Positions 23,371 to 52,047 of a DNA stretch of 64,000 bases are shown in pieces. The stretch's first letter is position 1; every line of letters begins with the position of its first letter. Both the position numbers and the translations under genes were made by a program. The notes under the pieces were generated by a model that was not told the DNA's origin, did not search any database, and was given only the letters and a program-made list of their open reading frames with translations. The DNA is from Selaginella tamariscina (lineage: Eukaryota; Streptophyta; Lycopodiopsida; Selaginellales; Selaginellaceae), in the NCBI GenBank assembly GCA_003024785.1, contig PUQB01000167.1, positions 396,674 through 460,673 on the forward strand. Direction: 5' to 3'.

Positions 23371-23374
23371 ATGT

Positions 23375-23401
23375 ATGCACGTTGTAACTAAAGTGGGCAT
23401 G
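23375..23401 (+). repeat. Left terminal inverted repeat of A
   Basis: It begins ATGCACGTTGTAACTAAAG and ends TGGGCATG. The same sequence starts B (37064) and, with a G lost, D (63084). The right-end version has A for C at position 6 and A for G at position 19. Palindromic GAATATTC motifs follow within about 170 bp. Confidence 0.85.
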
Positions 23402-23663
23402 ATACGTGAAAATGGGAATATAAAATAAATTACTAATTAATACTTAAGTTTTAATTATTAATTAATCATTTAATTAATATGTAATTAAGCCTTAAATATT
23501 AATTAATTAATTAATTAATCCTTCAATAACCTTACTTAGTAAGGAATATTCCTAAAATATCTTAGAATATTCATATTATTCTAAAAATAGTTTACAATAA
23601 TGAAGAAATACTATCAAACATAATTACAAATGAAATCATTTTCTTATCAACATGTTAATTTTT

Positions 23664-26600
23664 TTATAAATACTTTCTTTCTATCATACAAAGAAATCTT
23701 TTCATTTTGTCTAAATCATCACTCTCCGGATTAATCAAATCATTTTGGTCAATATCTTGATGTTGTTGCCACCACTTAACACTCTCACGAATGCAATTGG
23801 GAGTTGCCATCCTTGTTAATACATAAGATGTGATAAGAGAAGGTCTGCATAAAGGCTCATCTAAAAACTGACGTTCCTTAAGAATAATATTATAAAGCGC
23901 CCGGTTGCTATCCTTCATTTTATAAAATTCAATATCACGAGAAAGAAAAGCTTCAGGAAATGTATGATACGGTGGATACTGCTCACAAAAATTTTCGAGA
24001 TTCTTCTTTCTGAGGCACGTATCCAAGTAGTTCACTAGCTCATCCATGATATCGGTATCAGAATATGGATCGAAAGTGATTGGATGAATACAAGCAATGT
24101 TTTGGTTGAGCATAGCCTTCTGAGGAGAGTCGTCTACTACTAATCTGTGCATTCTTCATTATCCTTAAGCGACTGATCTCCCCATGAGTCCCAATTATTC
24201 TTTCATTCTTGAAGAAGTATGGCTTGCTTTCCTTTCTTATATTGTGAAATTCGAGAGGTTTATACACATTCGCTGGTCAAAAATCCAATCTTTACGAATC
24301 ACCTCTTCTGCAACACTACAATGTTTCTTAAGTAAATTCAACAGCGGTGTTAAGTTATGAATCTGCATGCATGACCAAATCCCCACAAGCGCACCCATCT
24401 CCTTAAGCTTTTGAAAGAGACGATCCAACCCTGGACGAAAAATAATATCATATCGAAATTTACCATGACAAGGAATGAAATCTCCTTGTTTGATTTCTTT
24501 TTTTATCCTCGGGCCTTTGTCGATGAAGCAGAACACCATTGACATCCAACAACACAATATGGCCATGAGTAACATGAGATAGCGTTGCCTCTTGAATACT
24601 TTGCAAATCACTTGTTTGCTCCCTTTCACATTTATCCGTTGCCACTATCTCGTTGCCTATCCCTTCATCATTTAATTGTACATCATCCTTACAAGATTCA
24701 GATATTGCATGCGCTGAAGAAATTGATTTCGGAATGAAGCCAATAAAAATGATGATGAAGTGGCCCCCATGGTAACGATGTTTTGAGCTGCATTATTATC
24801 CATTTCCTGCATGAACTCTGTCATTCTGACATGTGGCACAAGAAATTGTCGCCAAACCCCTCTCTTACCTCATGGCAATGCTGAAAATCCATGTTCTCAA
24901 TTATTTCATTACATCTGCAAAATGATAATTAGCTGACCTTAAAATTATCAAGGTATATTATTTACCTTGTTAATGTGTGACCCATGTTTGAACTAAAAGC
25001 TTCATTAATCCTTGAGAATTTATTTTCTGTACAAATATAAAAGAAATATACAAAAATGCCTTATGTTACACTCATTTACAACTATTCATCACTCTATCAA
25101 TTCATTATCAATTCTTCTTCGCTATTACCTTCTGAGTGAGGCGAAGAAGGTCTAAGCCGCTTGTGAGATGGTTCAAGATCTTCTGCATCTTCTATTGATG
25201 TTTCCATGGGTCCTGGAGTGTGCGAATGTTCTGTACTCCTCGAGATAACTTCCGGTCTAATATCTGATTGAAGTTCGTTCTCAGACTCCGAGATTGAACC
25301 AGATTCACCTTCAGAGCTATCGCACTTATCTGGAGGGAACTTTCTCAAATACGCCTTTATGGATCGTTGGGGTACTCAGTTGAGACCCAATCTATCCACT
25401 TGTTCAGGTCCTCAACCATGGTCTTATCCTTTTCAACGGCAAACACACATGTATGCCGAAGGTAACACTCCTTCAAGACGGACCCCCTAGTGCAGTAGTC
25501 AAAAACCCACGCATCACTGTGAGGACCCCTGATCAAGTTGACGATGCTCCGTGCCGCTTGACTTGTAATGTTTGGATAACGTACATTGCCGAATACGTCA
25601 CTCATACCTATCGGTGTATCGGATGGAGGTTCAGGGCCGTTGGAGTGCAAACAGATGCCTGGCCAGTCATTTGGAAGCTTGAAATTGTTTGGCGCATTCC
25701 TAACAACCAAGTGAACAACGTATCAATGCACTTGGGATTAGCATCGTTCATATAAAATCCTGTCCAACGATGTCTATTCTTCTTGGCGAAGGCGAAGGCA
25801 AAAGTATCGGTGACATGAGCAAGAATCAAGAAATAAATACCTGAAAAAGTAGGTATCAGTGAAGAGCGCAAGCATGAATTCAATAATAAATACCTTCTAT
25901 GTATATGCTTGCACGGCTAAGTTTCTCCACCAGATCCTCTAGTGCCCTATCTGTCGAAAGATTTTTTGACACCCGCCGATCCATCACGAACAATTGAAAC
26001 GGTTTCCTACAAGCAGTGATGTTACCCCATAAAGTCTCCGAATCTAACAACAAACATCTGTAGGGCTTGTCGTGATTCGTAGCATCCTCCTTTATAAGGT
26101 TCAATTCGGTTCTCCGCTGCTGAAGGACTGCCATAAGAGAAGGCGTCATCCCAATGTTCTCCTTTTTGGCGTTGGCGTGCAATAGATTCTTGCCAGATCT
26201 TCCGATTGGTTCACCCATTCGACAAGCATATCATCGTTCGTCACATGCAAATATTTGCTACCTCTTCATATGTTGAAGTCGAGGTCCAACCCAGTTTGTG
26301 GCAGTGTATTCCCAACCACTCCTTGAAATGCCTGACCGTCTTCAACTCCATTGCCTTGAGATGAAAAGGAGAGGTTGGGCTGCTGTTATTAATTTGTAGT
26401 TTGCCATCGATCACCAAATCAGCCAAGACTTCCATCTCCTCCATCGTTGTTCCATTTAAAGGCTTCAACCATGTGAGCTTGAAATCGTTGTCTACATCCT
26501 TTGTAGATTGAACAGACTTAGCCTTCGGCGTCTTACTGGGTTTCTTTGCAGACTTTTCTGAGGGCTCCCCTTCACTTGTCTGCTTCTTCTTCAGTGTTCC

Positions 26601-28194
26601 TTTTGAAAAGGATTCCATAATCCCCAACCATTTGGCAAAGATCCTATCTTCGGGGCAAGAAATCAACATCATCAGAAAGGATGTTTCCTTCCCGCCCACC
26701 TGGGCAAAATCAACTGCTGCAATTTCTTCAACTCTCTGAGGAAAAAGACAGATTAATATACCGGCGAGATAAATCCCGCCCAAACAATTTGCTTACCCGG
26801 TATTCCGCAGATTGTGTATTCCCTGCGGTAGCTCTTTGTGGTCGCTGAAGAGATTCCCACACGGCTCGCGTGTGTTTAAACTTCTCCCATATTTTGCTGT
26901 TGTAGTGGTTGGTGTCGGCAGCGTCCCATTCCGCCGATAACTTATGGTACTGCTCGATTGTGAGATTCGGCTTAGCTAAAAACGCCGATCTTTTTGTCAG
27001 CTTCTCACGGGTATGCTCGGAAAGTTTTGTTGCCATCGTTCCTTTGTTGTGTTCTCGAGAAGTCGTTGGGCTGCCGTTATTGTGTGCTGGCCACTAATGA
27101 TGTAGTACTTGATAGATTTTTATTCTCCGTCTGAATCTTCATGAGTTGTTCTGGTGTTGTGATCCAGACTTTGTCAGCGCCCTTCCTTCTTTCATAGTAT
27201 GGACACAAAACAGCATTATGTGGAACGGTATAAGAATTGTCGTCCTTCATCTTCTCCATGAGCTCAGCTACACGTTCCTGGTTGAGTGGCCTGTAATTGA
27301 AGTTTGGGTTGACGCTGCAATATTTAACCCTACAAGGATAAATCTTATCATCCAACATCATTTCCTTGTGACTTATTGCAGCATGAGATGCCACAGGTGC
27401 AGCTGACAAAACGATTGATGATTTTCTTTTGCGATCCGAATCAACATGTGTGATCCCCGACTGCAGCTGTTCTAGTGTTCTCGGCACACTCTTCCAGCTC
27501 CCGAAGCTCCTAAGCAAATTGAACGTGATCTGTAGAGAACCTGAGACCGAGCCACCCTCTCAATCTCCTTATGATGTCGCTGTGTTCTTCTTCAATGTGA
27601 AGAGGGAAGATTGCTCCACTTGCTGATTTTCTGTATTGTGAAGCAATATCTCCTGACAATACACCTACTCGATGAGTCTGAAGATCTTCGAAGTAGACAT
27701 CCAGATGGATCCCCTCCATAGATGGGCTTTCGTTGAGTTGAAGAAGAACTCCAAGGTCAACATCATTAGTGAACACGTGAACGTCATTATCCACAAGTCG
27801 ACAAAACCACCCGAAATTAATGTTGTAACTGACGACCTCTGGATCCGAGAACGTGACATTGGATGGAACAAGGCATATGTGTCGAGCATCGTCCAATCTG
27901 GGTTCGCAGCCTGCTTTCGGGTGCTTGACTAGCGAATCTACTTTCCATTGTTTTGCTTGTCCATGAGATGTGACAGAGGTTAATTTGACAGCAGCCATGG
28001 TTGCTCCAATGCGCTTCCCATTTATCTTAAAATATGGCCAAGTTGATTCCAGAATCCCCCTGCCCATCTCTTCTCCTGCTCTTGTCTTTAATGTCACCTC
28101 AATTCCACATCTGAATACAAAAATGATTAGTTCAAGTATCCGAGTATAACAGATTTTATTTTAATTCTTACCCAGAATTTGACGACGACTCCAT
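23664..28194 (-). pseudogene. Transposon A leftward gene: Tnp1-like, ParB-like, methyltransferase-like and FCP1-like phosphatase domains
   Basis: I read six minus-strand exons: from ATG 28194 to 28172, 28110-26797, 26735-25894, 25840-25129, 25026-24966 and 24914-23664, with GT-AG introns of 51-102 bp; about 1,400 codons if unbroken. Order: (1) an N-terminal segment with GRGILES and INGKRIGATMAAVKL, resembling the Tnp1/En-Spm accessory domain; (2) a ParB/sulfiredoxin-like domain, NYRPLNQERVAELMEKMKDD then SGQHTITAAQRL (intact in copy B); (3) a segment ending VFDYCTRGSVLKEC and VFAVEKD, like motif I of N6/N4 DNA methyltransferases, but with DSETLWG where the catalytic DPPY/W is expected; (4) an FCP1/NIF HAD phosphatase-like domain with DVNGVLLH (24527-24550), RPGLDRLFQKLKEMGALVGI and VVDDSPQ. 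Frameshifts at different places from copy B interrupt A. The join of (3) to (4) by the 25027-25128 intron is inferred; without it, a stop after EEELIMN (25097) would separate two genes. Confidence 0.6.
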
Positions 28195-28336
28195 ACTAAT
28201 GACTCGATCTCCTTGTTTGATCAAATCGTCCTTCTGCAAAATAATACACTATGAATACAAATTATATAAAAACGCACACACACTTGTATAAACCCGAATA
28301 TACAAAAATAATACACAGAGAGAAGTAGACGTAATT

Positions 28337-28422
28337 AACTGTCCGAAGCTCACATTTGTGTTAGTGCAAAAGAAAGATAACATTTCGTTTTAGAACCACC
28401 ACAAATGTGAGCTCTGGACAGT
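28337..28422. other. Stem-loop upstream of the leftward gene (copy A)
   Basis: AACTGTCCGAAGCTCACATT (28337) continuing to TTGTG pairs with a near-perfect inverted copy at 28399-28422: a 24-bp stem with a loop of about 38 bases. It lies in the presumed leader of the leftward gene and is conserved in copy B (42042-42127). Confidence 0.75.
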
Positions 28423-28531
28423 TTTACATAGATTCCTAGCTTTTACTCGAAATATTATGATAAGATGATAAAAGTAAATAAAATGAGATATGCAACTTAT
28501 ATATACTAATACACATATATATTCACATGGA

Positions 28532-30088
28532 AGGTGCGGCGGGATTAATCTCGCCACCCCTTCAATGCCTCCTGAAAGAGTGGGCGGGATTAATCTCGCC
28601 ACCTTTCTGGAGGCCTTGAACGGGAGTGCGGAATTAATCTTGCCACCCTTCTCGGTCTCAGAGAGAACTGGGCAGGATTTATTTCTCACACCCCTTCAGT
28701 GACTCCAGAAAGGAGGCGGGATTAATCTCGCCCACCATGTAAGGGATGGTTAAATGAATTTCCACCCTTCCCAGTTCCTCCATTGGTATGTTGTAAACCT
28801 TCTACGTCTCAGACAGAAACGTTTGGGATTGGTCCACTCACCAATGGAGAAAAAGGAAGGGTGGCGGATTCATTCTCCAACAGGCATTGAAGACTCGGCG
28901 GGATTAATCCCGCCGCCCAGGGCCTTCACTCGGTCCCTATGCGGCGGGATTAATCCCGCCGGACGCCAATTCCCTGCGCGGAATCGGGCGGGATTAATCC
29001 CGCCGCCTAGGCACTTCAGGCAGGCCAATGGCGGCGGATAAATCCCGCCCGATTCCGCACAGGGAATTGGCGTCCGGCGGGATTAATCCGCGCCTAGGCC
29101 TTCAGGCAGGCCAATGGCGGCGGGATAAATCCCGCCGATTCGCGCAGGGAATGGCGTCGCGGGATTAATCCCGCCTCCCAGGCCCTTCACTCGGGCCTTA
29201 GTCGGCGGGATTAATCCCACCGAACGGCAATGCCCTGTGCAAAATCTTGCGGGATTAATCCCGCCACCTAGGCCCTTCAGGCAGGCCAATGGCGGCGGGA
29301 TAAATCCCGCCCGATTCCGCGCAGGCATGCGTACGCAGCGGGATTAATCCCGCCCACCATGTAAGGGATGGTGAAATTAATCCCACCACCCTTCTCAGTT
29401 CCCTCCATTGGTATTTTGTAAACCTTCTCCGTCTCAGACAGAGTTAGTCATGATTGATTCAACATACCAATGGAGGAAAAACAGAAGGTGACGGGATTAA
29501 TCCCGTCACCGGGTAATGAAGGTTCGGAGAGACTAATCCCGCCGCCCTCTCGTAAATCATGCGCTCAACATATATATTGGATGCGGCATTTTGAACAGGG
29601 ATGGGTGGGGGCGGGATTAATCCGCCGCTTATATCCTGCGGAAGTGCCTGAGCGGCGGGATTAATCCCGCCGCCCTCCGCGAAGGGCATGAGCGTGGGGC
29701 CGGATTAATCCCGCCGTTCATGTCCTGCGTGAATTCCCTGGGCGGCGGGATTAATCCCGCTGCCTTACGTGCAGGACATGTCATGCAGGCTCTTCGGTTA
29801 GCCTTCCATGCAGGATCTTTTATGCAGGCTCTTCGGTTAGCCTCATGAGCGGCGGGATTAATCCGCCGCCCATCCCGTAATGCCCTGCGCGGAATCCGGC
29901 GGGATTAATCCCGCCCATTAGGGCCTTCACACAGGCCATTGCCGGCAAGATAAATCCCGCCGCATTCCGCGCAGGGCATGAGTGAGCGGCGGATTAATCC
30001 CGCCGCTCTTTGGTTTGTCCTAGAGCGGCGGGATTAATCTCGCCGCCATGGCCTCAACCATATAGCGGCGGGATTAATCCCGCCGCTC
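28532..30088. repeat. Palindrome array 1 of transposon A
   Basis: I count about 27 copies of GGCGGGATTAATCCCGCC and close variants (GGCGGGATAAATCCCGCC, one-base deletions, ...ATCTCGCC) spaced mostly 40-60 bp apart. Perfect copies lie for example at 28897-28914, 28943-28960 and 28987-29004. Spacers share phrases such as cccttcactcgg and aggcaggccaatgg. Two long imperfect hairpins (around 28750-28880 and 29380-29510) are embedded. The array sits between the 5' ends of the two divergent genes. Frames here translate to GGINPA/GLIPPP strings and are not genes. Confidence 0.92.
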
Positions 30089-30089
30089 G

Positions 30090-30163
30090 AGGGGCTTAGC
30101 GTGTGTGCGAGAGTAAAATTAATAAATAAAAAAATTATACAGATAAAACACACACAATATATA

Positions 30164-30219
<56 letters not shown>

Positions 30220-30857
30220 ATGTGTATGTATGTATGTATAGGAGTGTACGTGTGTGTGCAAGAGATAGATAAATAAATAAATTATACAGTACTGGTACAC
30301 ATAATATATGTGTGTACATAGGTATATATATGTGTGTATATGTATATCGTGTGTATGCGTGTGAGCGAAACAAATAAAATCATACAGATAAACAAACACA
30401 CACACACATATATATACACAGGAGTGTGCGTGTGTGTGCGAAAGATAAAACTAATAAATAAATAAAATTATACAGATAAACACACAATATATATGTGTGT
30501 ATATAGATATATAATCCATAGAGAAAGAGAGAGAGTCTGTGAATATATAAGCATATATATAAACTAGTGTTGTATGTATGTAATATGTATATAGGTAATA
30601 TATATGTGTATATGTATATTGTGTGTATGCGTGTGTGAGTGAAACAAATAAATCATACAGATAAACAAACACACACATACACACATATACATACACAGGA
30701 GTGTGCGTGTGTGTGCGAGAGATAAAACTAATAAATAAATAAAATTATACAGATAAACACACACATATATATATGTGTGTATATAGATATATAACCCATA
30801 TGAATATATAAGCATATATAAACTAGTGTTGTATACTATTTGTTAATATGCATTGAT

Positions 30858-30907
<50 letters not shown>

Positions 30908-31200
30908 GTAGTGCGTGTGTGTGGGAGAGATAGATCAATAAAAAAAAATTTACAGATACTGGTACACATAATATATGTATGTATATAGGTATATATATAT
31001 ATATGTGTATATGTATATTGTGTGTATGCGTGTGTGAGCGAAACATAAAATCATACAGATAAACAAACACACACCCACACACACATATACATACACAGGA
31101 GTGTGCGTGTGTGTGCAAGAGATAAAACTAATAAATAAATTTATACGCACACTCCTATACATATATATACATACACACACACAACACAACACACATCTCA
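30090..31200. repeat. TG/TA-rich block of transposon A
   Basis: (TG)n, (TA)n and mixed repeats arranged in about six diverged units of 150-300 bp. Each carries the phrase ggagtgtgcgtgtgtgtgcg followed by agataaaactaataaataaa. Strings of I, Y, H and T in translated frames are artefacts. Confidence 0.88.
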
Positions 31201-31529
31201 CCTGTGTGCACAGCCGCCGCCGATTTCACAGTATAAGAATATACCTAAAAAAGGAATTAAATATATATATTAACCCTAATAGAATATTCCTTCTGAGAAT
31301 ATACTTAAACCCTAAAAAGAATAAAATATAGATTTGCCCTAAACGAATATTCTTTCATTATATTATTAGCGTGTGCGTGTGCGTGAGTGTATCACATACA
31401 CCCCAAAATATAAATCATGCAGGGATTTAACATGTGTGTGTCCATGAGAGTGTTAAAGTGTCATCTGTATCAATACATACATACACATTGCATATATTAA
31501 TACACATAATATACAGACATACATACATA

Positions 31530-32106
31530 TTACATGGGTTTAGGGTTTAGGGTTTTGGATTTAGGATGGATCACATGGTGTGTATGTATGAGAGAAGAGA
31601 GAGTGTTGAAAAATTATTTTTGTACACATTGCATATATTAGTACACATATATACTTACACATATTATACAAGATATACATACATAGTATATGAGAGAGAG
31701 AGACAGTACATATTATGGATCATGCATGGTGTGTATTATACACACAGACATACATACATATTAGTACATAATATTAAAGAGACCGAGTACATATTATAGA
31801 TCATGCATGGTGTGTATGTTTGAGAGAAGAGAGACAGTACATATTAACATGGATCATGCATGTGTGTATATATGAGAGAAGACAGAAAGTACACATATAC
31901 ATACAGAGTACACATATATAACATACACACGTGTATACACACAGACATCATACATATTACATGAGTAAATTCATTGTGTTACATATTAGGGTTTAGGGTT
32001 TAGGGTTTAGGATGGATCATGCATGGTGTGAAGAGAGAGTGTTGAAAAATTATTTTTGTGCACACATGTATACACAGGGTTTAGGGTTTAGAGTTTAGGG
32101 TTTGCT
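31530..32106. repeat. Telomere-like (TTTAGGG) clusters and CATGCATG repeats in transposon A
   Basis: Three short runs of GGGTTTAGGGTTTAGGG (31536-31556, 31987-32012, 32077-32103) match the common plant telomere unit. Between them a repeat of about 60-130 bp carries gatcatgcatggtgtgtatg and gagagaagagagacagtaca. Copies B and C carry the same set. Confidence 0.8.
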
Positions 32107-32379
32107 CCAACAAGCTTAATATAAATATTACACATATAAATTCAATGTGTTACATACACACAGATTGAGTACATATATCATGCGTTGAACATGATGTTTT
32201 AATAAAGAAGTAACATATTTCTTCAGTTTGGTTTAGGGTTGTGCATGTGTGTGCATATGTGTTTTGTAAGTTCTTGTAATGCGTGTGTAAATTTATGATG
32301 TTTATATATGTGTGCAAAACAAACATCGAATAATTAAGAAAAAATATTAATAAACACACTATGAACATATTTTAAATTA

Positions 32380-33080
32380 TACATAATAATATTAATTTTA
32401 TCTAATATATAGCCATATATAGTTTTAATAATATATATTAATTTAATATTGATAAAAAGGTTTAACATTGAAATATTCTTGAAATAATAAGAAATTAATT
32501 GAGAAAATCCCATTAATATACAAATGTAAATTAAGTACTCAAATAATTAACTAAATTAATTATCATAATCATGTTAATATTGGAATATTCTTGGAATAAT
32601 AAGAAAATAATAAAGAATATCCCATTAATATAAAGAAGATTAATACTCAAGTAATTAAGGAAATGATATTAAATATATATTATTAAAACTATATATGACT
32701 ATATATTAGATAAAATGATATTATGTATAATTTAAAATATGTTCATAGTGTGTATTAATTTAATATTGATAATAAGGTTTAACACATGAATATTCTTGAA
32801 ATAATAACAAATTAATTGAGAAAATCCCATTAATATATACAAATGTAAATAATTACTGCAATAATTAAGAACAAGACTAATTTAATTATGATAATCAGGT
32901 TTAATATTAGAATATTCTTCAAATATTAATAAAATATTAAAGAATATCCCATTGATACTAGGAAATGAAAACTAAATACTCGAGTAATTAAGAAAATAAT
33001 AATAATAACAGACTATGAATATATTTTAAATGATACATAATAATATATCAATTTATTTATTGTATAAGTATATATTTATA
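32380..33080. repeat. AT-rich tandem array of transposon A
   Basis: About four diverged units of 120-200 bp, each with aatattcttgaaataataa-like sequence followed by aatcccattaatata and a tact-caa-aattaa phrase. Copy C has a longer version (60830-61800). Confidence 0.75.
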
Positions 33081-33299
33081 TATAATATAAATATACTTGA
33101 ATACTAAGAATGTAGAATATAGTCTAAAATTTCGTAATATTAAACAGCTTGAATCACTTGAATAACATTAAATGCAATTTTAAAATACTCATTGGAACTG
33201 GAGAGTATATGTCAGAGTGTCGGATATTTGGTCAACTCATCTTAAATTTTATTTTCTGTTCTTTTTAAAAAATTTGAATTTCTGACATATGTATTGTCG

Positions 33300-33499
33300 G
33301 TCTGACATGTAAATTTGAAAATGCATTTAATTTCCCACTCAAATTCAGATCTGGTTCTTTCTCCGGCAAGGGTTTCTTCATTTCTGTATTTTTCACTCTT
33401 TAGATCTTCTTTTTTCTTCATAGTGATCATCTCAGGAGCGAGATTAAATTGGGTGCTATTCTTTATAGGAAAGCACGGCGCCTTCAGTGCTGTTTACAA
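33300..33499 (+). other. 5' exon of the rightward transposase gene (copy A)
   Basis: A stretch conserved in A, B (to 46772) and C (from 60319) ends in the splice donor CAA|GTAAGT. The acceptor tttatgtgcag at 34258-34268 lies just before the transposase ATG. The intron (33500-34268) contains palindrome array 2. The exon is probably mostly untranslated: its open frame (MKMHLISHSNSDLVLSPARV...) would have to pass through the acceptor and I cannot show that it does. Confidence 0.5.
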
Positions 33500-33659
33500 G
33501 TAAGTATTATAAACAAATTTAAAAATACTTATAAAGATTCACTCTCTTACATTCTCTCTTAAAATTACAATTTAGGGGTTTAGGAATGCATTAGGATTAA
33601 AATATTCCGTTAGAATTATCCCGTTTAAATATCCTTTTAACTTAATATCTAGGTTAACC

Positions 33660-34121
33660 GGGCGCGGGATTAATCCGGCCATTTCTTTTTCGCCTCTTCG
33701 AAGAGGTGGCGGGATTAATCCCGCCACCATCTCTCGGGCAATGCTTCTCCGCACTGAAAAAGAGTGGCGGGATTAATCCGCCGATAACCTTCTCAACTGA
33801 TGAAGAGTTACCAGAATTTATTAAAAAGTTGTCGGGGATTAATCCCAACCATTTTAGGAGGCAGGGAAGGGGTGGCAGGATTAATCTCGCCACCACATCC
33901 CTGTTTAAGGATTTGAGGACAGGATTTATCCCGAGATCTCTTTGAAATCATAGTTTTGGAGAGAGTTATGTGCGGGTTTAATCCCGCCACCCATTCCCCG
34001 TCGTAAGAATTGTGGGCGGGATTAATCCCGCCGACTCTCTCCGAAGGGGTTGAGTCGGCGGCAGGATTAATCCCGCCGACCGTTCCTGTCGGAGGATTCG
34101 TGGGCGGGATTAATCCCGCCC
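33660..34121. repeat. Palindrome array 2 of transposon A, inside transposase intron 1
   Basis: About ten copies of GGCGGGATTAATCCCGCC and variants. Perfect cores lie near 33709, 34014 and 34103. Spacers differ from those of array 1 (cctcttcgaagaggt, ctctctccgaaggggttgag). Confidence 0.9.
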
Positions 34122-34274
34122 ATCAGTTATATTAATCAAACATGAGATATTATCTTTAAACATAATTATGTATTATTGCATATGCATATTATTAAGTAAC
34201 CGTAATTCAGATTTCTTAAAAATATTACATAAACAGATATCATAAATAATACAATTATTTATGTGCAGGACAAT

Positions 34275-37060: not shown

Positions 37061-37063
37061 AAT
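37060..37063 (+). repeat. Target duplication TAAT of transposon B (left)
   Basis: TAAT precedes B's terminus ATGCACG (37064). The partner is ATTA at 50488-50491, the reverse complement, because that flank was inverted. The gene sequence of A continues from it without loss. Confidence 0.8.
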
Positions 37064-37351
37064 ATGCACGTTGTAACTAAAGTGGGCATGATACGTGAAA
37101 ATGGGAATATAAAATAAATTACTAATTAATACTTAAGTTTTAATTATTAATTAATCATTTAATTAATATGTAATTAAGCCTTAAATATTAATTAATTAAT
37201 TAATTAATCCTTCAATAACCTTACTTAGTAAGGAATATTCCTAAAATATCTTAGAATATTCATATTATTCTAAAAATAGTTTACAATAATGAAGAAATAC
37301 TATCAAACATAATTACAAATGAAATCATTTTCTTATCAACATGTTAATTTT

Positions 37352-40300: not shown

Positions 40301-41899
40301 TTCCTTTTGAAAAGGATTCCATAATCCCCAACCATTTGGCAAAGATCCTATCTTCGGGGCAAGAAATCAACATCATCAGAAATGATGTTTCCTTCCCGCC
40401 CACCTGGGCAAAATCAACTGCTGCAATTTCTTCAACTCTCTGAGGAAAAAGACAGATTAATATACCGGCGAGATAAATCCCGCCCAAACAATTTGCTTAC
40501 CCGGTATTCCGCAGATTGTGTATTCCCTGCGGTAGCTCTTTGTGGTCGCTGAAGAGATTCCCACACGGCTCGCGTGTGTTTAAACTTCTCCCATATTTTG
40601 CTGTTGTAGTGGTTGGTGTCGGCAGCGTCCCATTCCGCCGATAACTTATGGTACTGCTCGATTGTGAGATTCGGCTTAGCTAAAAACGCCGATCTTTTTG
40701 TCAGCTTCTCACGGGTATGCTCGGAAAGTTTTGTTGCCATCGTTCCTTTGTTGTGTTCATCGAGAAGTCGTTGGGCTGCCGTTATTGTGTGCTGGCCACT
40801 AATGATGTAGTACTTGATAGATCTTTTATTCTCCGTCTGAATCTTCATGAGTTGTTCTGGTGTTGTGATCCAGACTTTGTCAGCACCCTTCCTTCTTTCA
40901 TAGTATGGACACAAAACAGCATTATGTGGAACGGTATAAGAATTGTCGTCCTTCATCTTCTCCATGAGCTCAGCTACACGTTCCTGGTTGAGTGGCCTGT
41001 AATTGAAGTTTGGGTTGACGCTGCAATATTTAACCCTACAAGGATAAATCTTATCATCCAACATCATTTCCTTGTGACTTATTGCAGCATGAGATGCCAC
41101 AGGTGCAGCTGACAAACGATTGATGATTTTCTTTTGCGATCCGAATCAACATGTGTGATCCCCGACTGCAGCTGTTCTAGTGTTCTCGGCACACTCTTCC
41201 AGCTCCCAAGCTTCCTAAGCAAATTGAACGTGATCTGTAGAGAACCTGAGACCGAGCCACCCTCCAATCTCCATTATGATGTCGCTGTGTTCTTCTTCAA
41301 TGTGAAGAGGGAAGATTGCTCCACTTGCTGATTTTCTGTATTGTGAAGCAATATCCTCCTGACAATACACCTATCGATGAGTCTGAAGATCTTCGAAGTA
41401 GACATCCAGATGGATCCCCTCCATAGATGGGGCTTTCGTTGAGTTGAAGAAGAACTCCAAGGTCAACATCATTAGTGAACACGTGAACGTCATTATCCAC
41501 AAGTCGACAAAACCACCCGAGATTAATGTTGTAACTGACGACCTCTGGATCCGAGAACGTGACATTGGATGGAACAAGGCATATCTGTCGAGCATCGTCC
41601 AATCTGGGTTCGCAGCCTGCTTTCGGGTGCTTGACTAGCGAATCTACTTTCCATTGTTTTGCTTGTCCATGAGATGTGACAGAGGTTAATTTGACAGCAC
41701 CATGGTTGCTCCAATGCGCTTCCCATTTATCTTAAAATATGGCCAAGTTGATTCCAGAATCCCCCTGCCCATCTCTTCTCCTGCTCTTGTCTTTAATGTC
41801 ACCTCAATTCCACATCTGAATACAAAAATGATTAGTTCAAGTATCCGAGTATAACAGATTTTATTTTAATTCTTACCCAGAATTTGACGACGACTCCAT
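37352..41899 (-). pseudogene. Transposon B leftward gene: Tnp1-like, ParB-like, methyltransferase-like, FCP1-like phosphatase
   Basis: The exon structure is the same as in A: ATG 41899 to 41877, 41815-40501, 40439-39596, 39542-38828, 38725-38665, 38613-37352. B preserves parts that are broken in A: 41115-40501 is open through the whole ParB-like segment (SGQHTITAAQRLLDEHNKGT), 40439-39596 is open for about 280 codons, and 38119-37352 is an uninterrupted 255-codon phosphatase C-terminal part (RLFQKLKEMGALVGIWSCM, then ILVVDDSPQKAMLNQNIACI, then a 150-residue helical tail). A one-base deletion near 38340 and others near 41110 and 41700 break the frame, at different places from A. In the HAD motif DVNGVLL (38221-38239) the usual second Asp is Asn, as in some plant FCP1-like paralogues; the nucleophile Asp is kept. 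The role of the product in transposition is unknown. Confidence 0.62.
40440..40500 (-). other. 61-bp intron carrying one palindrome variant (copy B)
   Basis: Donor ACCGG|GTAAGC and acceptor TTTTTCCTCAG enclose GGCGGGATTTATCTCGCC, a variant of the array palindrome. The same intron in A is 26736-26796. It splits the ParB-side exon from the next one. Confidence 0.75.
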
Positions 41900-42236
41900 A
41901 CTAATGACTCGATCTCCTTGTTTGATCAAATCGTCCTTCTGCAAAATAATACACTATAAATATAAATTATATAAAAACGCACACACACTTGTATAAACCC
42001 GAATATACAAAAATAATACACAGAGAGAAGTAGACGTAATTAACTGTCCGAAGCTCACATTTGTGTTAGTGCAAAAGAAAGATAACATTTCGTTTTAGAA
42101 CCACCACAAATGTGAGCTCTGGACAGTTTTACATAGATTCCTAGCTTTTACTCGAAATATTATGATAAGATGATAAAAGTAAATAAAATGAGATATGCAA
42201 CTTATATATACTAATACACATATATATTCACATGGA

Positions 42237-43626
42237 AGGTGCGGCGGGATTAATCTCGCCACCCCTTCAATGCCTCCTGAAAGAGTGGGCGGGATTAATC
42301 TCGCCACCTTTCTGGAGGCCTTGAACGGGAGTGCGGAATTAATCTTGCCACCCTTCTCGGTCTCAGAGAGAACTGGGCAGGATTTATTTCTCACACCCCT
42401 TCAGTGACTCCAGAAAGGAGGCGGGATTAATCTCGCCCACCATGTAAGGGATGGTTAAATGAATCTCGCCACCCTTCCCAGTCCTCCATTGGTATGTTGT
42501 AAACCTTCTACGTCTTAGACAGAAACGTTTGGGATTGGTCCAACTCACCAATGGAGGAAAAAGGAAGGGTGGCGAGATTCATTTCTCCAACAGGCATTGA
42601 AGACTCGGCGGGATTAATCCCGCCGCCCAGGGCCTTCACTCGTCCCTATGCGGCGGGATTAATCCCGCCGGACGCCAATTCCCTGCGCGGAATCGGGCGG
42701 GATTAATCCCGCCGCCTAGGCACTTCAGGCAGGCCAATGGCGGCGGGATAAATCCCGCCCGATTCGCACAGGGATTGGCGTCGGCGGGATTAATCCCGCC
42801 TCCCAGGCCCTTCACTCGGGCCTTAGTCGGCGGGATTAATCCCGCCGAACGCCAATGCCCTGTGCGAAATCTTGCGGGATTAATCCCGCCGCCTAGGCCC
42901 TTCAGGCAGGCCAATGGCGGCGGGATAAATCCCGCCCGATTCCGCGCAGGGCATGCGTACGCGGCGGGATTAATCCCGCCCACCATGTAAGGGATGGTGA
43001 AATTAATCCCACCACCCTTCTCAGTTCCCTCCATTGGTATTTTGTAAACCTTCTCCGTCTCAGACAGAGTTAGTCGGGATTGATTCAACATACCAATGGG
43101 GTAAGAAGGTCGGGATTAATCTCGCCACCGGGTAATGAAGGTTCGGAGGCTAATCCCGCCGCCCTCTCGTAAATCATGCGCTCACACATATATATTGGCT
43201 GCGGCATTTTTGAACAGGGATGGGTGGGGGCGGGATTAATCCCGCCGCCCAGGAAGTGCCTGAGCGGCGGGATTAATCCCGCCGCCCTCCGCGAAGGGCA
43301 TGAGCGTGGGGCCGGATTAATCCCGCCGTTCATGTCCTGCGTGAATTCCCTGGGCGGCGGGATTAATCCCGCCGCTCTACGACAAACCGAAGAGCGGCGG
43401 GATTAATCCGCCGCCCATTCCCTGTAAATGCCCTGCGCGGAATCCGGCGGGATTAATCCCGCCCATTAGAACCTTCACACAGGCCATTGCCGGCGAGATA
43501 AATCCCGCCGCATTCGCGCAGGGCATGGATGAGCGGCGGGATTAATCCCGCCGCCAGGCCCCACCATAGCGGCGGGATTAATCCCGCCGCCGGCTTCTAT
43601 AGCGGCGGGATTAATCCCGCCGCCTC
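42237..43626. repeat. Palindrome array 1 of transposon B
   Basis: Same unit and order as in A (28532-30088), with fewer one-base deletions and without the tcttcggttagcc duplication seen in A at 29780-29845. The last units lie at 43533-43622 and are all close to perfect. Confidence 0.92.
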
Positions 43627-43639
43627 GGGGCTTAGCGAG

Positions 43640-44330
43640 ATAAAAACACACACATATATATATGTGTGTGTGTATATATATAATATATGTATTATGTATG
43701 TATGTATAGGAGTGTACGTGTGTGTGCAAGAGATAGATAAATAAATAAAATTATACAGTACTGGTACACCTAATATATGTGTGTACATAGGTATATATAT
43801 GTGTGTATATGTATATCGTGTGTATGCGTGTGAGCGAAACAAATAAAATCATACAGATAAACAAACACACACACACACATATATATACACAGGAGTGTGC
43901 GTGTGTGTGCGAAAGATAAAACTAATAAATAAATAAAATTATACAGATAAACACACACATATATGTGTGTATATAGATATATAATCTATAGAGAAAGAGA
44001 GAGAGTCTGTGAATATATAAGCATATATATAAACTAGTGTTGTATGTATGTATATATGTATATAGGTATATATATATGTGTATATGTATATTGTGTGTAT
44101 GCGTGTGTGAGCGAAACAAATAAAATCATACAGATAAACAAACACACACACACACACATATACATACACAGGAGTGTGCGTGTGTGTGCGAGAGATAAAA
44201 CTAATAAATAAATAAAATTATACAGATAAACACACACATATATATATGTGTGTATATAGATATATAACCCATATGAATATATAAGCATATATATAAACTA
44301 GTGTTGTATACTATTTGTTAATATGCATTG

Positions 44331-44429
<99 letters not shown>

Positions 44430-44730
44430 GCAGTGTGCGTGTGTGTGGGAGAGATAGATCAATAAAAAAAATTTACAGATACTGGTACATAATATATTGT
44501 ATGTATATATGTATATAGGTATATATTATATGTGTATATGTATATCGTGTGTATGCGTGTGTGAGCGAAAAAAATAAAATCATACAGATAAACAAACACA
44601 CACCCAACACAACATATAATACACAGGAGTGTGCGTGTGTGTGCGAGAGATAAAACTATAAATAAATTTATACGCACACTCCTATACATATATACATACA
44701 TACACACACACACACACAGAGATCTCACCT
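43640..44730. repeat. TG/TA-rich block of transposon B
   Basis: Counterpart of 30090-31200. It includes the longest pure runs: (TA)n at 44332-44366 and (TG)n at 44379-44427. Confidence 0.9.
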
Positions 44731-45327
44731 GTGTTGCACAAGCCGCCGCCGCGATTTCACAGCCGCCCCTCTTGAAACCATAAGAATATACCTAAACCCT
44801 AAAGGAATTAAATATATATATTAACCCTAATAGAATATTCCTTCTGAGAATATACTTAAACCCTAAAAAGAATAAAATATAGATTCGCCCTAAACGAATA
44901 TTCTTTCATTATATTATTAGCGCGTGCGTGTGCGTGGGTGTATCACATACACCTCAAAAATATAAATCATGCAGGGATTTAACATGTGTGTGTCCATGAG
45001 AGTGTTAAAGTTTCATGTGTATCAATACATACATACACATTGCATATATTAATACACATAATATATACATACACACGTGTATACACACAGACATACACAC
45101 ATATTTAATATTAGAGAGACCGAGTACATATTATAGATCATGCATGGTGTATTTGTTTGAGAGAAGAGAGACAGTACATATTAACATGGATCATGCATGG
45201 TGTGTATGTATGAGAGAAGACAAAAAGTACACATATATACATACAGAGTACACATATATACATGCACACGTGTATACACACAGACATACATACATATTAC
45301 ATGAGTAAATTCATTGTGTTACATATT

Positions 45328-45354
45328 AGGGTTTAGGGTTTAGGGTTTAGGGTT
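45328..45354 (+). repeat. Telomere-like run in transposon B
   Basis: Four consecutive TTAGGGT/TTTAGGG units. The two further clusters seen in A are missing here through a deletion of the repeat block between them. Confidence 0.85.
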
Positions 45355-45639
45355 TGCTCCCAACAAGCTTAATATAAATATTACACATGTAAATTCAATG
45401 TGTTACATACAGTCACACAGATTGAGTACATATATCATACATGCGTTGAACATGATGTTTTCAATAAAGAAGCAACTTATTTCTTCAGTTTGGTTTAGGG
45501 TTGTGCATGTGTGTGCATATGTGTTTTTGTAAGTTCTTGTAATGCGTGTGTAAATTTATGATTGTGTTTATATATGGTGCAAAACAAACATCGAATAATT
45601 AAGAAAATAATATTAATAAACACACTATGAACATATTTT

Positions 45640-46400
45640 AAATTATATAATAATATATGATTTTATCTAATATATAGCCATATATAGTTTTAATAATATA
45701 TATTAATTTAATATTGATAAAAAGGTTTAACATTGAAATATTCTTGAAATAATAAGAAATTAATTGAGAAAATCCCATTAATATATACAAATGTAAATTA
45801 AGTACTCAATAATTAACTAAATTAATTATCATAATCATGTTTAATATTGGAATATTCTTAGAATAATAAGAAAATAATAAAGAATATCCCATTAATATAA
45901 AGAAGATTAATTACTCAAGTAATTAAGGAAATGATATTAATATATATATTATTAAAACTATATATGACTATATATTAGATAAAATGATGTATTATTATGT
46001 ATAATTTAAAATATGTTCATAGTGTGTATTAATTTAATATTGATAATAAGGTTTAACACATGAATATTCTTGAAATAATAACAAAATTAATTGAGAAAAT
46101 CCCATTAATATATACAAATGTAGAATAATTACTGCAATAATTAAGAACAAGACTAATTTAATTTGATAATCAGGTTTAATATTAGATATTCTTCAAATAT
46201 TAATAAAATATTAAAGAATATCCCATTGATACTAGGAATGAAAACTAAATACTCGAGTAATTAAGAAAATAATAATAATAAACAGACTATGAATATATTT
46301 TAAATGATACATTAATATATCAATTTATTTATTGTATAAGTATATATTTATATATAATATAAATATACTTGAATACTAAGAATGTAGAATATAGTCTAAA
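45640..46400. repeat. AT-rich tandem array of transposon B
   Basis: Counterpart of 32380-33080, with the same 120-200 bp units carrying aatattcttgaaataataa and cccattaatata. Confidence 0.75.
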
Positions 46401-46934
46401 ATTTCGTAATATTAAACAGCTTGAATCACTTGAATAACATTAAATGCAATTTTAAAATACTCATTGGAACTGGAGAGTATATATGTCAGAGTGTCGAATA
46501 TTTGTGTCAACTCATCTTAAATTTTATTTCTGTTCTTTTTAAAAATTTGAATTTCTGACATATGTATTGTCGGTCTGACATGTAAATTTGAAAATGCATT
46601 TAATTTCCCACTCAAATTCAGATCTGGTTCTTTCTCCGGCAAGGGTTTCTTCATTTCTGTATTTTTCACTCTTTAAATCTTCTTTTTTCTTCATAGTGAT
46701 CATCTCAGGAGCGAGATTAAATTGGGTGCTATTCTTTATAGGAAAGCACGGCGCCTTCAGTGCTGTTTACAAGTAAGTATTATAAACAATTTAAAAATAC
46801 TTATAAAGATTCACTCTCTTACTTCTCTCTTAAAATTACAATTTAGGGGTTTAGGAATGCATTAGGATTATAATATATTCTGTTAGGAATTTATCCCGTT
46901 TAAATATCCTTTTAATTTAATATTAGGTTAACCG

Positions 46935-47408
46935 GGGGGCGGGATTAATCCGGCCATTTCTTTTTCGCCTCTTCGAAGAGGTGGCGGGATTAATCCCGCC
47001 ACCATCTCTCGGGCAATGCTTCTCCGCCACTGAAAAAGAGTGGCGGGATTAATCCCGCCGATAACCTTCTCAACTGATGAAGAGTTACCAGAATTTATTA
47101 AAAAGAGTTGTCGGCGGGATTAATCCCGCCAACCATTTTAGGAGGCAGGGAAGGGGTGGCAGGATTAATCTCGCCACCACATCCCTGTTTTAAGGATTTG
47201 AGGACAGGATTTATCCCGAGATCTCTTTGAAATCATAGTTTTGGAGAGAGTTATGTGCGGGTTTAATCCCGCCACCCATTCCCCGTCGTAAGAATTGTGG
47301 GCGGGATTAATCCCGCCGACTCTCTCCGAAGGGGTTGAGTCGGCGGCAGGATTAATCCCGCCACCGTTCCTCGTCGGAGGGATTCGTGGGCGGGATTAAT
47401 CCCGCCCA
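46935..47408. repeat. Palindrome array 2 of transposon B, inside transposase intron 1
   Basis: Ten or eleven copies, better preserved than in A. It lies in the intron 46773-47554 (donor CAA|GTAAGT, acceptor TTTATGTGCAG). Confidence 0.9.
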
Positions 47409-47560
47409 TCAGTTGTATTAATCAAACATGAGATATTATCTTTAAACATAATTATGTATTATTGCATATGCATATTATTAAGTAACTGTAATTCAGATTT
47501 CTTAAAAATATTGCATAAACAGATATCATAAATAATACAATTATTTATGTGCAGGACAAT

Positions 47561-50374
47561 ATGTTTAATACTGGAGATAAAGTATGTCTTCTTCGAACAA
47601 CGAGATAGTTGGCACTGGAACTGTGGAAGTTCGAGATAATAATGCATCATGTCACAATATTGCCCAAGGATCTTGTGTGTACGTATGGGTGAACACCATT
47701 TATAAGCATGTTGAGGTTCTGGGAATGGAATTTGAGGAGGGTTCTCCTGTATTGTGGAATTTGGATGAAGTCAAGGCTGACACAGAATATGCAGAGTCAC
47801 AAACAAATAGTAGCACGAGTTTACCAGATGATGGCTTGCCTGCTGTAATGGATGAGGTGATTCTCTTTCTTCGTGAGATTGAAGTCGGAAGAGGCATCAT
47901 CACAGTTATAAATCCAATGGAAGCAGTGTTCAGAAGAGAAACTAGGGTCCGACTTCGTGGGTGTAGTTGTGACAGAGGTTTCACCTAATGGCACATTGTA
48001 TCCTGGATCCCTCGTGAGGTGGCGAACATCTGAATTAAGACGGCAAGATGGTTCAACATATTCTGGGTTGGATTTCAATAATACAACCCGGAAGAACAAC
48101 TCATATTTGAAGAGGTTCCTTGCATTGGTCCTATTGTAAGAAAAAGGCGATTCATGGGTTGTAGATCTTCCCCTGCAAGTTTCAGCAAGAGGGTAAAGAT
48201 GGATCCTACATCTTCCGAAAGTGTTACAAGCATTTCCACGATTGACTGTTGCAAGAAGAAGTGTTGTAGATGGCAGACCGGAATGAAATTACCCAATGTA
48301 GACATGTCTTTCGTATGCTCACCCAAAGCAAAGGCATGAGTTTGTATATGCTGCACTAACTGGGTGTATTGATGGAATGGCCTCGGACACAGGTTATCAG
48401 AGTACATCCATGGTATTTAATAAGGTGGCCATCTGCTTCAAAGCTTGGTACAGTATATACGGGATCTCAAAGACCATGTTCTACCGTCGGAGGGATGAGT
48501 GGCTAGATGGAGCGCGAACCTCAGTTCATGGGAACACTGGCTTGGTCAAAACCCGCTCTCACATCATGGCAGCCATAGAGATACTCAAGGCTTTTGTGGA
48601 AGCAAATGTAGACAGGATGCCTCACAAATGCCGAACCACAAATGCAGGGGTCAGGGAAAATCTCAAGGTTTTACCTTCAATCTACACTCAATTGAAGCTG
48701 TGTGAACATGTGAACAAGTGCCTCAGTTTGATGGGGCTCCAACAATCTGCACTGGTACCTTCAACAACACATATGGAATACTCATTTTAAGGATGTGGAG
48801 ATTGCAAAACACTCTAGCTTTTCTAAGTGTGACACTTGTACATCATTGAAGGCTGCAGAGGCTTGTGCAAAAACCTTGGTGGAGATCACTACCATTCAAA
48901 GGAAGATGGAGGCCCACAATGATTGCACAACAAACTTGCCGGTCTCAGTACTATGCACACCGCATGCTTTCTGTGTCACGCCCATCAGAGTACCTGTGCT
49001 TGATCCATGACAAGATGGATCATTCAAGACCAGCATTCCAAAGCTCTTTACAACACCAAAGTGCCTTGGAAATGTCATGAAACTTCCGATTTCATTGACA
49101 GGTGTGCTAACACATGGACACGGTTGTGAGTCATATGGACACTTTTCACTTCCACATTGGTCTAGCGACTCCAATTTCACTATTGGGTCGTTAGCCATGT
49201 GTTTCAGAAACCTTGAAGCCCACTCACAGACAAGTCCTATCAGTGATCTCAAAGTGAAGAAACAAACCTTCAACTTTACATAATGCTCTCATGAACACAT
49301 CTGCACTTGAGGCTACTTGGGAATATGAGAGGCATTGTCAGCAACCTGCACAAAAACAGATGGCCCTATTGAGAGTTCAGGTTCAGTGGAGGGATTTAGC
49401 TCAAATAGTGTACATGTGTCCTCAACATCAAATAGCTTCCTCGTCATTTGCTTTTACAGATGGATAATTGTGCAGGCGAGAACAAAAATAGGTAAATCAT
49501 TTTACTTAAGGGTTTCTCAAGCTCATACTTACTTTTATTTTCTAGATATGTGCTAGCATACTTGTCAAATGCTTGTTGCCAAAGGTGTGTTTGAAACAAT
49601 CACGCTCAATTTCCTTATGGTTGGTCACACTCATGAAGATATTGATGCGTTCTTCAGCAAGTCTCCAACTCTACAAAAAGGACAAGTGCACTTACCTTAC
49701 CGCATATGATGAATTTTTTGAAAATTGCATCTCCAAAAAAAGTTGTGCTTTGCTTGTGACTGAGGTGCCAGACTTCAAAAATTTCTCAAAGAGTATAATA
49801 AAAGAAGGGAGTGATTCTTTAGTTGGTCACCTTGTGCCGCTACAATTCTTTTCTCCATACGAGATGGTATACCTATTATGCAGTACAAGTTACGGCCATC
49901 AGAGCAGGAGTGGTTACCGAAAGGGCTTAATGCTCTTCAAAAGTGGAGAGGATGGAAAGCCACTTCTCCCAGAAGGACAACCAGACCCTATTCCATTAAG
50001 TGCCAGCTCAAGGAACAAGAGGTTATTATTGATGGCATCAAAAAATATGTGGCATGGGTTCAAAAATCGATGCCAAAGAATTCTGATAAGGCAACTGGTT
50101 ACTCAGAACTATATAAGCATGTGGTCAACTATTGGGAGACTGTTGTTCGAGAGTTGGAAGGGCCTACTGTCACAAGTACAGAATTGCAACACCCTTTTTG
50201 GCCTAAAACAAGGTGGCGAGAGGAGATTGAAATGACATCACTGAGCACAGACGACATAGAAGCCAGTAGTGATGTGGAAGTGCAAACCCCACATTTTGTT
50301 GGACAAAGGAACCAAAACCTAAAGCATACTTTGATTGCTGCAAGGATCTTCAAAAACTAATGATGGTTCTCATT
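47561..50374 (+). pseudogene. Transposon B transposase-like gene (DUF7869-type)
   Basis: It starts at ATG 47561 after the acceptor at 47554. The N-terminal Tnp1-like part is open to about 47930 (134 codons). Later frames are shifted several times, for instance near 47930, 48690, 49270 and 49650, but all domain motifs are present: FRKSW-type helix-turn segment GISKTMFYRRRDEWLDGART, CDTCTSLKAAEACAKTL, MDNCAGENKNR before the 54-bp intron (49492-49545), and VGHTHEDIDAFFSK. The end of the gene, ending MFSEA, is inverted at 51286-50997. Copy C gives the cleanest N-terminal half. Confidence 0.7.
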
Positions 50375-51286
50375 AGAACCATGCAACCTTAACAATACTA
50401 TTTTTTGTGATTACTTCAGGTGTGTCGATAATTTGACCCATCCAAATAGGCTGATTATATGACGCATCTGGAGTAATGAGAACCATCATTAATGCAAGTT
50501 GTAACTAAAATGGGCATGGCTATAGTCCCATTTCCTAATAATTAGCAATTTTAGCTATTTAATTAGCATTTTCTAATATTAAAGGAATATTCTTTAGAAT
50601 ATATATTAAAAAACAGAATATTCTTTAGAATATCTATTTTGTAATCGACCCTTTAATAAATTATAGCATTCATTGAACAAAAACTAATAACATTATAAAA
50701 GTAAAAGGTATTAAATTATATAATATATTGCCTAATATAACAATTAAGGAAGAGCATAAGAGGTACATTATATAAATATTGATGTTGTTATTAAAATATT
50801 AATATTTAAATATAACATTATTAATTAAAAATTGTAGTAGTAATAATATATATATTAAAATCCTATAATAATATAGTCATCTTCCATATCATTTTTTAAA
50901 TTTATATAGTTAAGTATACAATTTGGTACTATTATTAAAGAGTTTATAATAATTATGAATATTAAATATATGATATTTTATAATTTTGTAATTGCTTTAA
51001 GCTTCAGAAAACATACATTCCCTTGCAGTTTTGTTAATCGTGACTTTATCAACGCTTCTTGACATCCACCCATATCGAATGGATTTAACATTTATAAAAC
51101 ATGCTGGGTCTTTTTTGATTGGGAGACCATGTTTTCTCTAGGCATCCATTATATTTTTTCGCTCTCCTTCTCGTGTCGCCTTTTTTGTGGTTTGAACCAT
51201 GCAACCTTAACAATACTATTTTTTGTGATTACTTCAGGTGTGTCAATAATTTGACCCATCCAAATAGGCTGATTATATGACGCATC
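50375..51286 (-). other. Inverted segment joining the right ends of A and B
   Basis: In its present order the segment reads: reversed piece of A's transposase gene (50375-50487), reversed TAAT (50488-50491), reversed B right end (50492 to about 51180) and reversed end of B's transposase gene (to 51286). The left breakpoint follows gatggttctcatta, the right one precedes agaaaccacaaaaaagg. Together with 51287-51990 it forms a near-perfect inverted repeat with arms of about 700 bp. Confidence 0.8.
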
Positions 51287-51990
51287 TGAGAAACCACAAA
51301 AAAGGCGACACGAGAAGGAGAGCGAAAAATATAATGGATGCCTAGAGAAAACATGGTCTCCCAATCAAAAAGACCCAGCATGTTTTATAAATGTTAAATC
51401 CATTCGATATAGGTGGATGTCAAGAAGCGTTGATAAAGTCACGATTAACAAAACTGCAAGGGAATGTATGTTTTCTGAAGCTTAAAGCAATTACAAAATT
51501 ATAAAATATCATATATTTAATATTCATAATTATTATAAACTCTTTAATAATAGTACCAAATTGTATACTTAACTATATAAATTTAAAAAATGATATGGAA
51601 GATTGACTATATTATTATAGGATTTTATATATATATTATTACTACTACAAATTTTAATTAATAATGTTATATTTAAATATTAATATTTTAATAACAACAT
51701 CAATATTTATATAATGTACCTCTTATGCTCTTCCTTAATTGTTATATTATGCAATATATTATATAATTTAATACCTTCTACTTTATAATGTTATTAATTT
51801 TTTTTCAATGAATGCTATAATTTATTAAAGGGTAGAATACAAAATAGAATATTCTAAAGAATATTCTATTTTCAAACATATATTCTAAAGAATATTCCTT
51901 TAATATTAGAAAATGCTAATTAAATAGCTAAAATTGCTAATTATTAGGAAATGGGACTATAGCCATGCCCATTTTAGTTACAACTTGCAT
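51287..51990 (+). other. End of A's transposase gene and A's right terminal region
   Basis: It reads through KRRHEKESEK and SVDKVTINKTARECMFSEA to a stop near 51485, then about 500 bp of AT-rich sequence with GAATATTC motifs, ending in the right terminal repeat CAACTTGCAT and the ATGT duplication. Confidence 0.8.
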
Positions 51991-52047
51991 ATGTCATGGT
52001 GACTACCAAGACCACCTAAGTCAACCCACATTTGGCATGCGGAGTCC

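Follow-up and report, generated by a model that had tools for sequence, protein, structure and literature searches.

Nested copies of a probable ~14-kb DNA transposon family with a DUF7869 transposase gene and palindrome arrays in Selaginella tamariscina

A 64,000-bp stretch of the Selaginella tamariscina genome (assembly GCA_003024785.1, contig PUQB01000167.1, positions 396,674 to 460,673 of the forward strand; hereafter the window) contains four insertions, designated A, B, C, and D, which are very probably copies of one cut-and-paste DNA transposon family about 14 kb long. Such a family, including a transposase of the DUF7869 type, is the best explanation of the observations described below. 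The initial annotation of this DNA had already proposed a ~14-kb DNA transposon family with 4-bp target duplications and one copy nested in another, and this proposal is supported by the ends, the duplications, an empty target site, and a DD(D/E)-type transposase. It had overlooked a 915-bp inversion, the nature of the ends at 55720 and 63084, which represent copy C with D inserted, and arrays of an 18-bp palindrome.

Results

Ends, target duplications, and nesting

Of the six matching ends listed in the initial annotation, five are exact copies of ATGCA[C/A]GTTGTAACTAAA, located at 23375, 37064, 50492, and 55720 (plus strand) and at 51990 (minus strand), while the one at 63084 (plus strand) has lost one base. 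With up to two mismatches allowed, the motif was observed five times in the window versus 0.01 expected. The left-type (ATGCACG...) and right-type (ATGCAAG...) ends share 25 of their first 27 bases and show little similarity further in. Comparison of the window with itself revealed that the left part of A (23374-37066) recurs within 37063-50365, and a third copy lies in reverse orientation within 55720-63084. The net lengths of A and B are 14,501 bp and 14,111 bp, and substitution divergence between A, B, and C is 0.6–2.0% over the compared stretches, in addition to many one-base gaps. B is inserted within A and D within C, which makes two self-insertions in about 40 kb.

Both target duplications are readable for A and B only. 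ATGT borders A on the left and on the right, as had been noted before, and B is preceded by TAAT. The TAAT previously reported on the other side of B appears there only after reversal of a 915-bp segment: as printed, positions 50488-50491 read ATTA, because the right end of B and the remainder of A sit inverted. TAAT is a true target duplication, since B (50352-50366) and C (56518-56532, minus strand) each preserve a single copy of the unoccupied target AAAAACTAATGATGG. The empty site of A itself was not found in the window. For D, the place in A and B corresponding to its insertion point in C (63083) reads ...GTGCGTATAAATTT.

The 915-bp inversion

Reversal of the segment 50376-51290 yields the right end of B, TAAT, and the 112 missing bp of A, which then join 51291-51990; the right end of B then reads ...CTTGCAT and, directly after it, TAATGATGG. 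Relative to the uninterrupted C, one of the restored junctions is exact and the other has two small differences. The breakpoints (50376 and 51290) are clean, with no large loss, and lie inside both elements rather than at their ends; the inversion may have arisen by end-joining or by template switching during replication, or it may reflect misassembly. Two other interpretations of this region were rejected. The sequences 50492-51193 and 51291-51990 are not 700-bp long terminal inverted repeats but two right ends facing each other through the inversion, because the left and right ends of the elements are alike over only about 27 bp. Nor is 50492-51990 a separate small foldback element: it consists of the same facing right ends, and the ATTA that precedes it is the duplication of B reversed.

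The transposase gene

Recognised coding parts of a transposase gene are present in A, B, and C (Table 1). In A, the open reading frame (ORF) 35594-36193, upstream of the DUF7869 core, also matches DUF7869 (E 8.2e-14), and the 54-bp GT-AG intron between these two ORFs is clear from the three copies. The conserved acidic residues D192, D353, and D395 (E392, D393, and D395 being candidates for the third catalytic acid), together with a predicted RNase H-like core, suggest that the enzyme belongs to the DD(D/E) type. Structure comparison (VIA-align) was restricted to the candidates of Foldseek, and a family missing from that list carries no meaning. The N-terminal part of the transposase matched Transposase_23 weakly (E 0.041, 14.2 bits), under the 21-bit cut-off.

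A read-through query (residues 220-860 of 922) retrieved 97 relatives at E 0.001, 96 of them with precomputed PF25273, and the best relative was 51% identical over 85% of the query region. A profile built from 49 relatives gave at least 85 rows at E 1e-5 among 7989 scored candidates. The relatives were found in bryophytes, including the liverworts Riccia sorocarpa and Calypogeia fissa and the moss Ceratodon purpureus, in animals, including Mytilus, Branchiostoma, Exaiptasia, and Holothuria, in protist transcriptomes, and in metagenomes. In a quick 51-row tree, flagged for long branches, the window transposase grouped with sequences P0001 and P0002 (support 100), and these three were nested in a 13-row group including Calypogeia (support 97). 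In itself, this placement would point to a bryophyte or similar non-seed plant as the probable host.

Compared with the majority sequence, the transposases of A, B, and C miss 33, 16, and 7 of 2756 coding columns, respectively, and all three are frameshifted. Substitutions among them are not concentrated at third codon positions. Copy decay and sequencing error are inseparable here because a long terminal repeat (LTR) pair unrelated to the elements has a comparable gap mix.

A viral or phage origin of the transposase was rejected: P0001 had no match in 50,697 phage records, none of the 22 pattern matches of a 36-row transposase alignment in viral contigs was confirmed, and BFVD contained no match at E 0.001. 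Three of 52 pattern matches in prokaryotic genome contigs were confirmed as related loci, all of them in metagenome bins, and they are probably eukaryotic contamination.

Palindrome arrays

The initial annotation correctly reported several repeat blocks, which understated what is present. The window contains 30 exact copies of the 18-bp palindrome GGCGGGATTAATCCCGCC, or 57 when one mismatch is tolerated, versus 0 in 100 shuffles. With at most two mismatches, 68 sites were found; 66 of them fall within five array blocks (Table 1), and the other two, at 26763 and 40467, lie within a gene designated gene 1, in A and B, respectively. Array 1 is located upstream of the recognised coding part of gene 1 and array 2 upstream of that of the transposase; array 2 might be intronic, since a further upstream transposase exon is possible.

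Spacing of 44-46 bp was found in 30 of the 61 palindrome intervals shorter than 250 bp. In 47 sites picked by their left half, the right half retains 1.30-2.0 bits and the flanks 0.01-0.70 bits; in 54 sites picked by their right half, the left half retains 1.12-2.0 bits and the flanks 0.03-0.62 bits. Where sites are spaced 42-47 bp apart, site identity is 91% in A (n = 13) and 94% in B (n = 17), while ungapped spacer identity is 31% and 32%. The sites are not independent samples, since A, B, and C are mutually copied, but the contrast between sites and spacers is also seen within a single element. Conserved palindromes, kept spacing, and free spacers form the pattern that protein-binding arrays would be expected to show. 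When viral contigs were scanned for exact matches, the palindrome and the element end were each found in one contig, at one site, which we take as chance. A literature search on palindrome arrays in transposons revealed nothing similar among the titles listed, which does not mean that no such case has been published.

Gene 1 and the phosphatase-like gene

The element had been described as carrying two divergent multi-exon genes. Two divergent genes and one clear intron, that of the transposase, were indeed found; the other introns were judged by eye from broken frames, and a phosphatase-like gene between gene 1 and the left end of the element is possibly a third gene. The read-through of gene 1 had no relative at E 0.001 among about 5.8 billion proteins (5333 candidates), a search in which exons joined by eye may weaken a match. 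Two readings of gene 1 found no support. A resemblance to ParB noticed by eye (YRPLNQERVAEL...YYIISGQHTITAAQ) had no match in Pfam, PHROGs, NCBIfam, PDB sequences, or phages, and comparison with ParB in a plasmid collection gave one chance-level match (E 6). DNA-methyltransferase motifs, likewise seen by eye, were backed by no library. A single-sequence fold model of one stretch of gene 1 had a predicted local distance difference test (pLDDT) score of 38.3 and was too poor to use. The phosphatase-like ORF scored far below the cut-off of the NCBIfam dullard-like model (E 0.038, 13.8 bits, cut-off 139), and no PDB sequence matched it at E 0.01.

DUF7869 loci beyond the window

One of the related loci, L003, a metagenome-bin contig, contains an intact DUF7869 ORF of 947 aa. 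A different, 21-bp palindrome is present at five sites around this gene (34-54, 114-134, 489-509, 3573-3593, and 4071-4091); with up to three mismatches, 0 of 200 shuffles matched it, the pattern being derived from the locus itself. Perfect palindromes with arms of at least 8 numbered 1 in L003, 0 in L004, and 3 in L005, versus shuffle maxima of 3, 3, and 2 (40 shuffles each). In L005, two palindromes are arranged in tandem (4989-5146) downstream of a DUF7869-related ORF. These data do not establish the trait as a general one, because the counts in L003 and L004 are below the shuffle maxima and those in L005 are tandem copies. It seems rather improbable that throughout the DUF7869 lineage a fast-evolving gene 1 product binds evenly spaced palindrome arrays next to both genes, forming a sequence-specific complex of an anti-silencing or a partition-like (ParB-parS-like) kind that both protects and regulates the element; if it did, L003 with its distinct palindrome would be an independent instance.

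Table 1. Features of the elements in the window
Feature	Position	Strand	Basis
Left target duplication of A, ATGT	23371..23374	.	Flank comparison
Element A, left part up to the B insertion (final four bases TAAT are the left duplication of B)	23375..37063	+	Self-comparison, ends
Phosphatase-like gene of A	~23667-24644	-	Copy comparison
Gene 1 of A	~25360-28160	-	Copy comparison
Palindrome array 1 of A, 18 sites with ≤1 mismatch (19 with ≤2)	28538..30084	.	Motif scan
Palindrome array 2 of A, 4 sites with ≤1 mismatch (7 with ≤2)	33663..34120	.	Motif scan
Transposase of A, recognised coding part	34267 to ~37059	+	Copy comparison
DUF7869 core of the A transposase	36194..36907	+	PF25273, E 4.1e-27, 95.5 bits (cut-off 26)
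Left target duplication of B, TAAT	37060..37063	.	Flank comparison
Element B, left end to inversion breakpoint	37064..50375	+	Self-comparison, ends
NIF/FCP1-like phosphatase gene of B	37355..38355	-	ORF 37355-38299: PF03031, E 3.4e-9, 37 bits (cut-off 21.8)
Gene 1 of B, apparently multi-exon (splicing by eye), frameshifted	39028..41865	-	ORFs
Palindrome array 1 of B, 20 sites with ≤1 mismatch (22 with ≤2)	42243..43621	.	Motif scan
Plant telomere-type repeat (TTTAGGG)3, AT-rich centre of B	45332..45352	.	Repeat scan
Palindrome array 2 of B, 7 sites with ≤1 mismatch	46938..47406	.	Motif scan
Transposase of B, recognised coding part; one 54-bp GT-AG intron, frameshifted, upstream exon possible	47553..50362	+	ORFs, copy comparison
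Inverted 915-bp segment: A remainder 50376-50487, B right duplication 50488-50491, B right end 50492-51290	50376..51290	-	Both junctions, reversed, fit C
Element A, right end	51291..51990	+	Self-comparison, ends
Right target duplication of A, ATGT	51991..51994	.	Flank comparison
Element C, right half; interrupted by D at 63083; right end flanked by TATC	55720..63083	-	Self-comparison, ends
Transposase of C, recognised coding part	59337 down to ~56522	-	Copy comparison
Palindrome array 2 of C, 8 sites with ≤1 mismatch (9 with ≤2)	59484..60149	.	Motif scan
Element D, left end, continuing beyond the window; one end base missing; preceded by GTAT	63084..64000	+	End motif

Other features of the window

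Telomere-type TTTAGGG repeats similar to that of B occur in the AT-rich centres of A (31539-31552 and 31992-32005) and C (62070-62090 and 62165-62178). Direct repeats of about 1.77 kb at 370-2142 and 5876-7645, 97% identical and starting 5.5 kb apart, are probably the LTRs of a retrotransposon, and a related inverted copy is located at 20324-22032 (minus strand). ORFs for Ty3-type gag and protease occupy 7992-9223 on the minus strand (Retrotrans_gag, E 3.3e-17; aspartyl protease, E ~1e-4). A frame-broken gene at 16890-18707 (plus strand) contains the P-loop-like stretch SGCGKTRLAYELL, and its ORFs had no Pfam match. An inverted pair with 85% identity outside the elements (19441-19775 and 55176-55493, minus strand) may represent a small non-autonomous repeat. 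Scans for Rfam families and tRNAs detected nothing in the window.

Discussion

Two alternatives concern the interpretation of the structures themselves. The nested arrangement or the 915-bp inversion could have been introduced by faulty assembly of repeat-rich DNA: there are 22 one-base gaps between B and C, 15 of them in homopolymers, and 12 in the unrelated LTR pair, of which nine are in homopolymers, as would be expected from noisy long reads. Misassembly is not expected to produce fitting duplications together with inversion junctions matching C, and the 915-bp piece is shorter than a typical long read, which also counts against it; we regard such an error as very unlikely. The palindrome arrays, in turn, might not be protein sites at all but a neutral tandem repeat with a decay-resistant 18-bp unit, or RNA hairpins such as small-RNA precursors. 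Tandem expansion is hinted at by the copy number of array 1, which differs between A and B (19 versus 22 sites with at most two mismatches), and the predicted RNA fold of a 131-nt stretch with three sites is very stable (-77.5 kcal/mol, z -6.5). A neutral tandem repeat should preserve its unit and its spacer equally, whereas the ungapped spacers are near-random and the sites and their spacing are preserved, and an RNA hairpin would be expected to allow compensatory changes instead of one fixed sequence. These explanations are unlikely, though not negligible, and the arrays are probably bound by a dimeric DNA-binding protein that the element itself encodes, acting on the element's own promoters or against silencing.

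The place of the family among known superfamilies is less certain. Mutator elements generate target duplications of about 9 bp, hAT and KDZ/Zisupton elements of 8 bp, and CACTA/EnSpm elements, which have CACTA-type ends, of 3 bp. The family in the window has ATGCA ends, 4-bp duplications, and internal rather than subterminal arrays, and the misfit with CACTA, hAT, and KDZ/Zisupton stated in the initial annotation stands. Its likeness to CACTA/EnSpm, in which the element protein TNPA binds repeated short sites, consists of such sites and the sub-cut-off Transposase_23 match. The closest named superfamily is Sola, the lead given in the initial annotation and still the best available; the likeness is one of described features, with no Sola transposase compared, and on this basis membership is somewhat favoured. 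In the excerpts available, Sola elements are described as having a DDD transposase, 4-bp duplications, a size of mostly 2-9 kb with some >15 kb, and terminal repeats of 11 bp to 1124 bp, and as occurring in Physcomitrella (PMC10741241); Sola1 of Physcomitrella is tabulated, with Capsicum also listed (PMC9033089), and Sola2 of amoebozoa has AT-rich 4-bp duplications (PMC3627910). The 4-bp duplications of two insertions (ATGT for A; TAAT for B, with empty sites), the inverted termini, and the large size agree with these partial descriptions, and the candidate DDD-type triad and the occurrence of relatives in bryophytes would fit them as well. The descriptions make no mention of palindrome arrays, of gene 1, or of the phosphatase-like gene. 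The family could also belong to another superfamily or form a separate one characterised by transposases of the DUF7869 type together with 4-bp duplications, to which we give a substantial chance, if less than an even one. Such a placement is favoured by the extra genes, which the same excerpts do not describe for Sola, by the broad spread of DUF7869 in animals, bryophytes, and protist transcriptomes, and by the absence of the name DUF7869 and of six motif strings from the 5.39 million open-licence papers searched. Against it stand the agreements with Sola listed above, and the lack of a Pfam name in papers tells nothing about the names used in Repbase.

For the transposon family itself, transposition is what we infer from the ends, the duplications, the empty site, the conserved acidic residues, and the predicted fold. 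The plus-strand DUF7869-type DD(D/E) transposase would recognise the ends, which resemble each other for about 27 bp, and integrate the element into cuts with a 4-bp stagger, thereby producing the 4-bp target duplications. The family has the plan of an autonomous element, and on at least two occasions one copy has landed in another (B in A, and D, represented in the window by its left end, in C). The dimeric palindrome-binding protein might be either the gene 1 product or the transposase. Once bound, this protein may act on the element's own promoters, or it may counter host silencing, as VANC does on VANDAL arrays. According to the available part of one report, VANC proteins of Arabidopsis VANDAL elements bind a short motif tandemly accumulated in non-coding parts, which leads to methylation loss (PMC5735166). 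This is the nearest documented parallel to the palindrome arrays: like the family here, VANDAL elements are plant transposons that combine a transposase with a further fast-evolving protein and with arrays of a short motif in non-coding DNA (PMC5735166). In contrast, the transposases and the target duplications are different, VANDAL elements being Mutator-like, the VANC21 motif given there has nine bases versus the 18-bp palindrome here, and gene 1 is likened to VANC by arrangement only.

With its link to precisely defined ends, to 4-bp duplications, and to a predicted fold of the RNase H type, the widespread domain DUF7869 would become a transposase family open to testing, with members in bryophytes and in animals. 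Apparent selection on binding sites and on the distances between them is unusually clear in these palindrome arrays for sequences within a transposon, and the arrays would allow testing whether plant elements outside the Mutator group carry their own sequence-specific control or anti-silencing systems.

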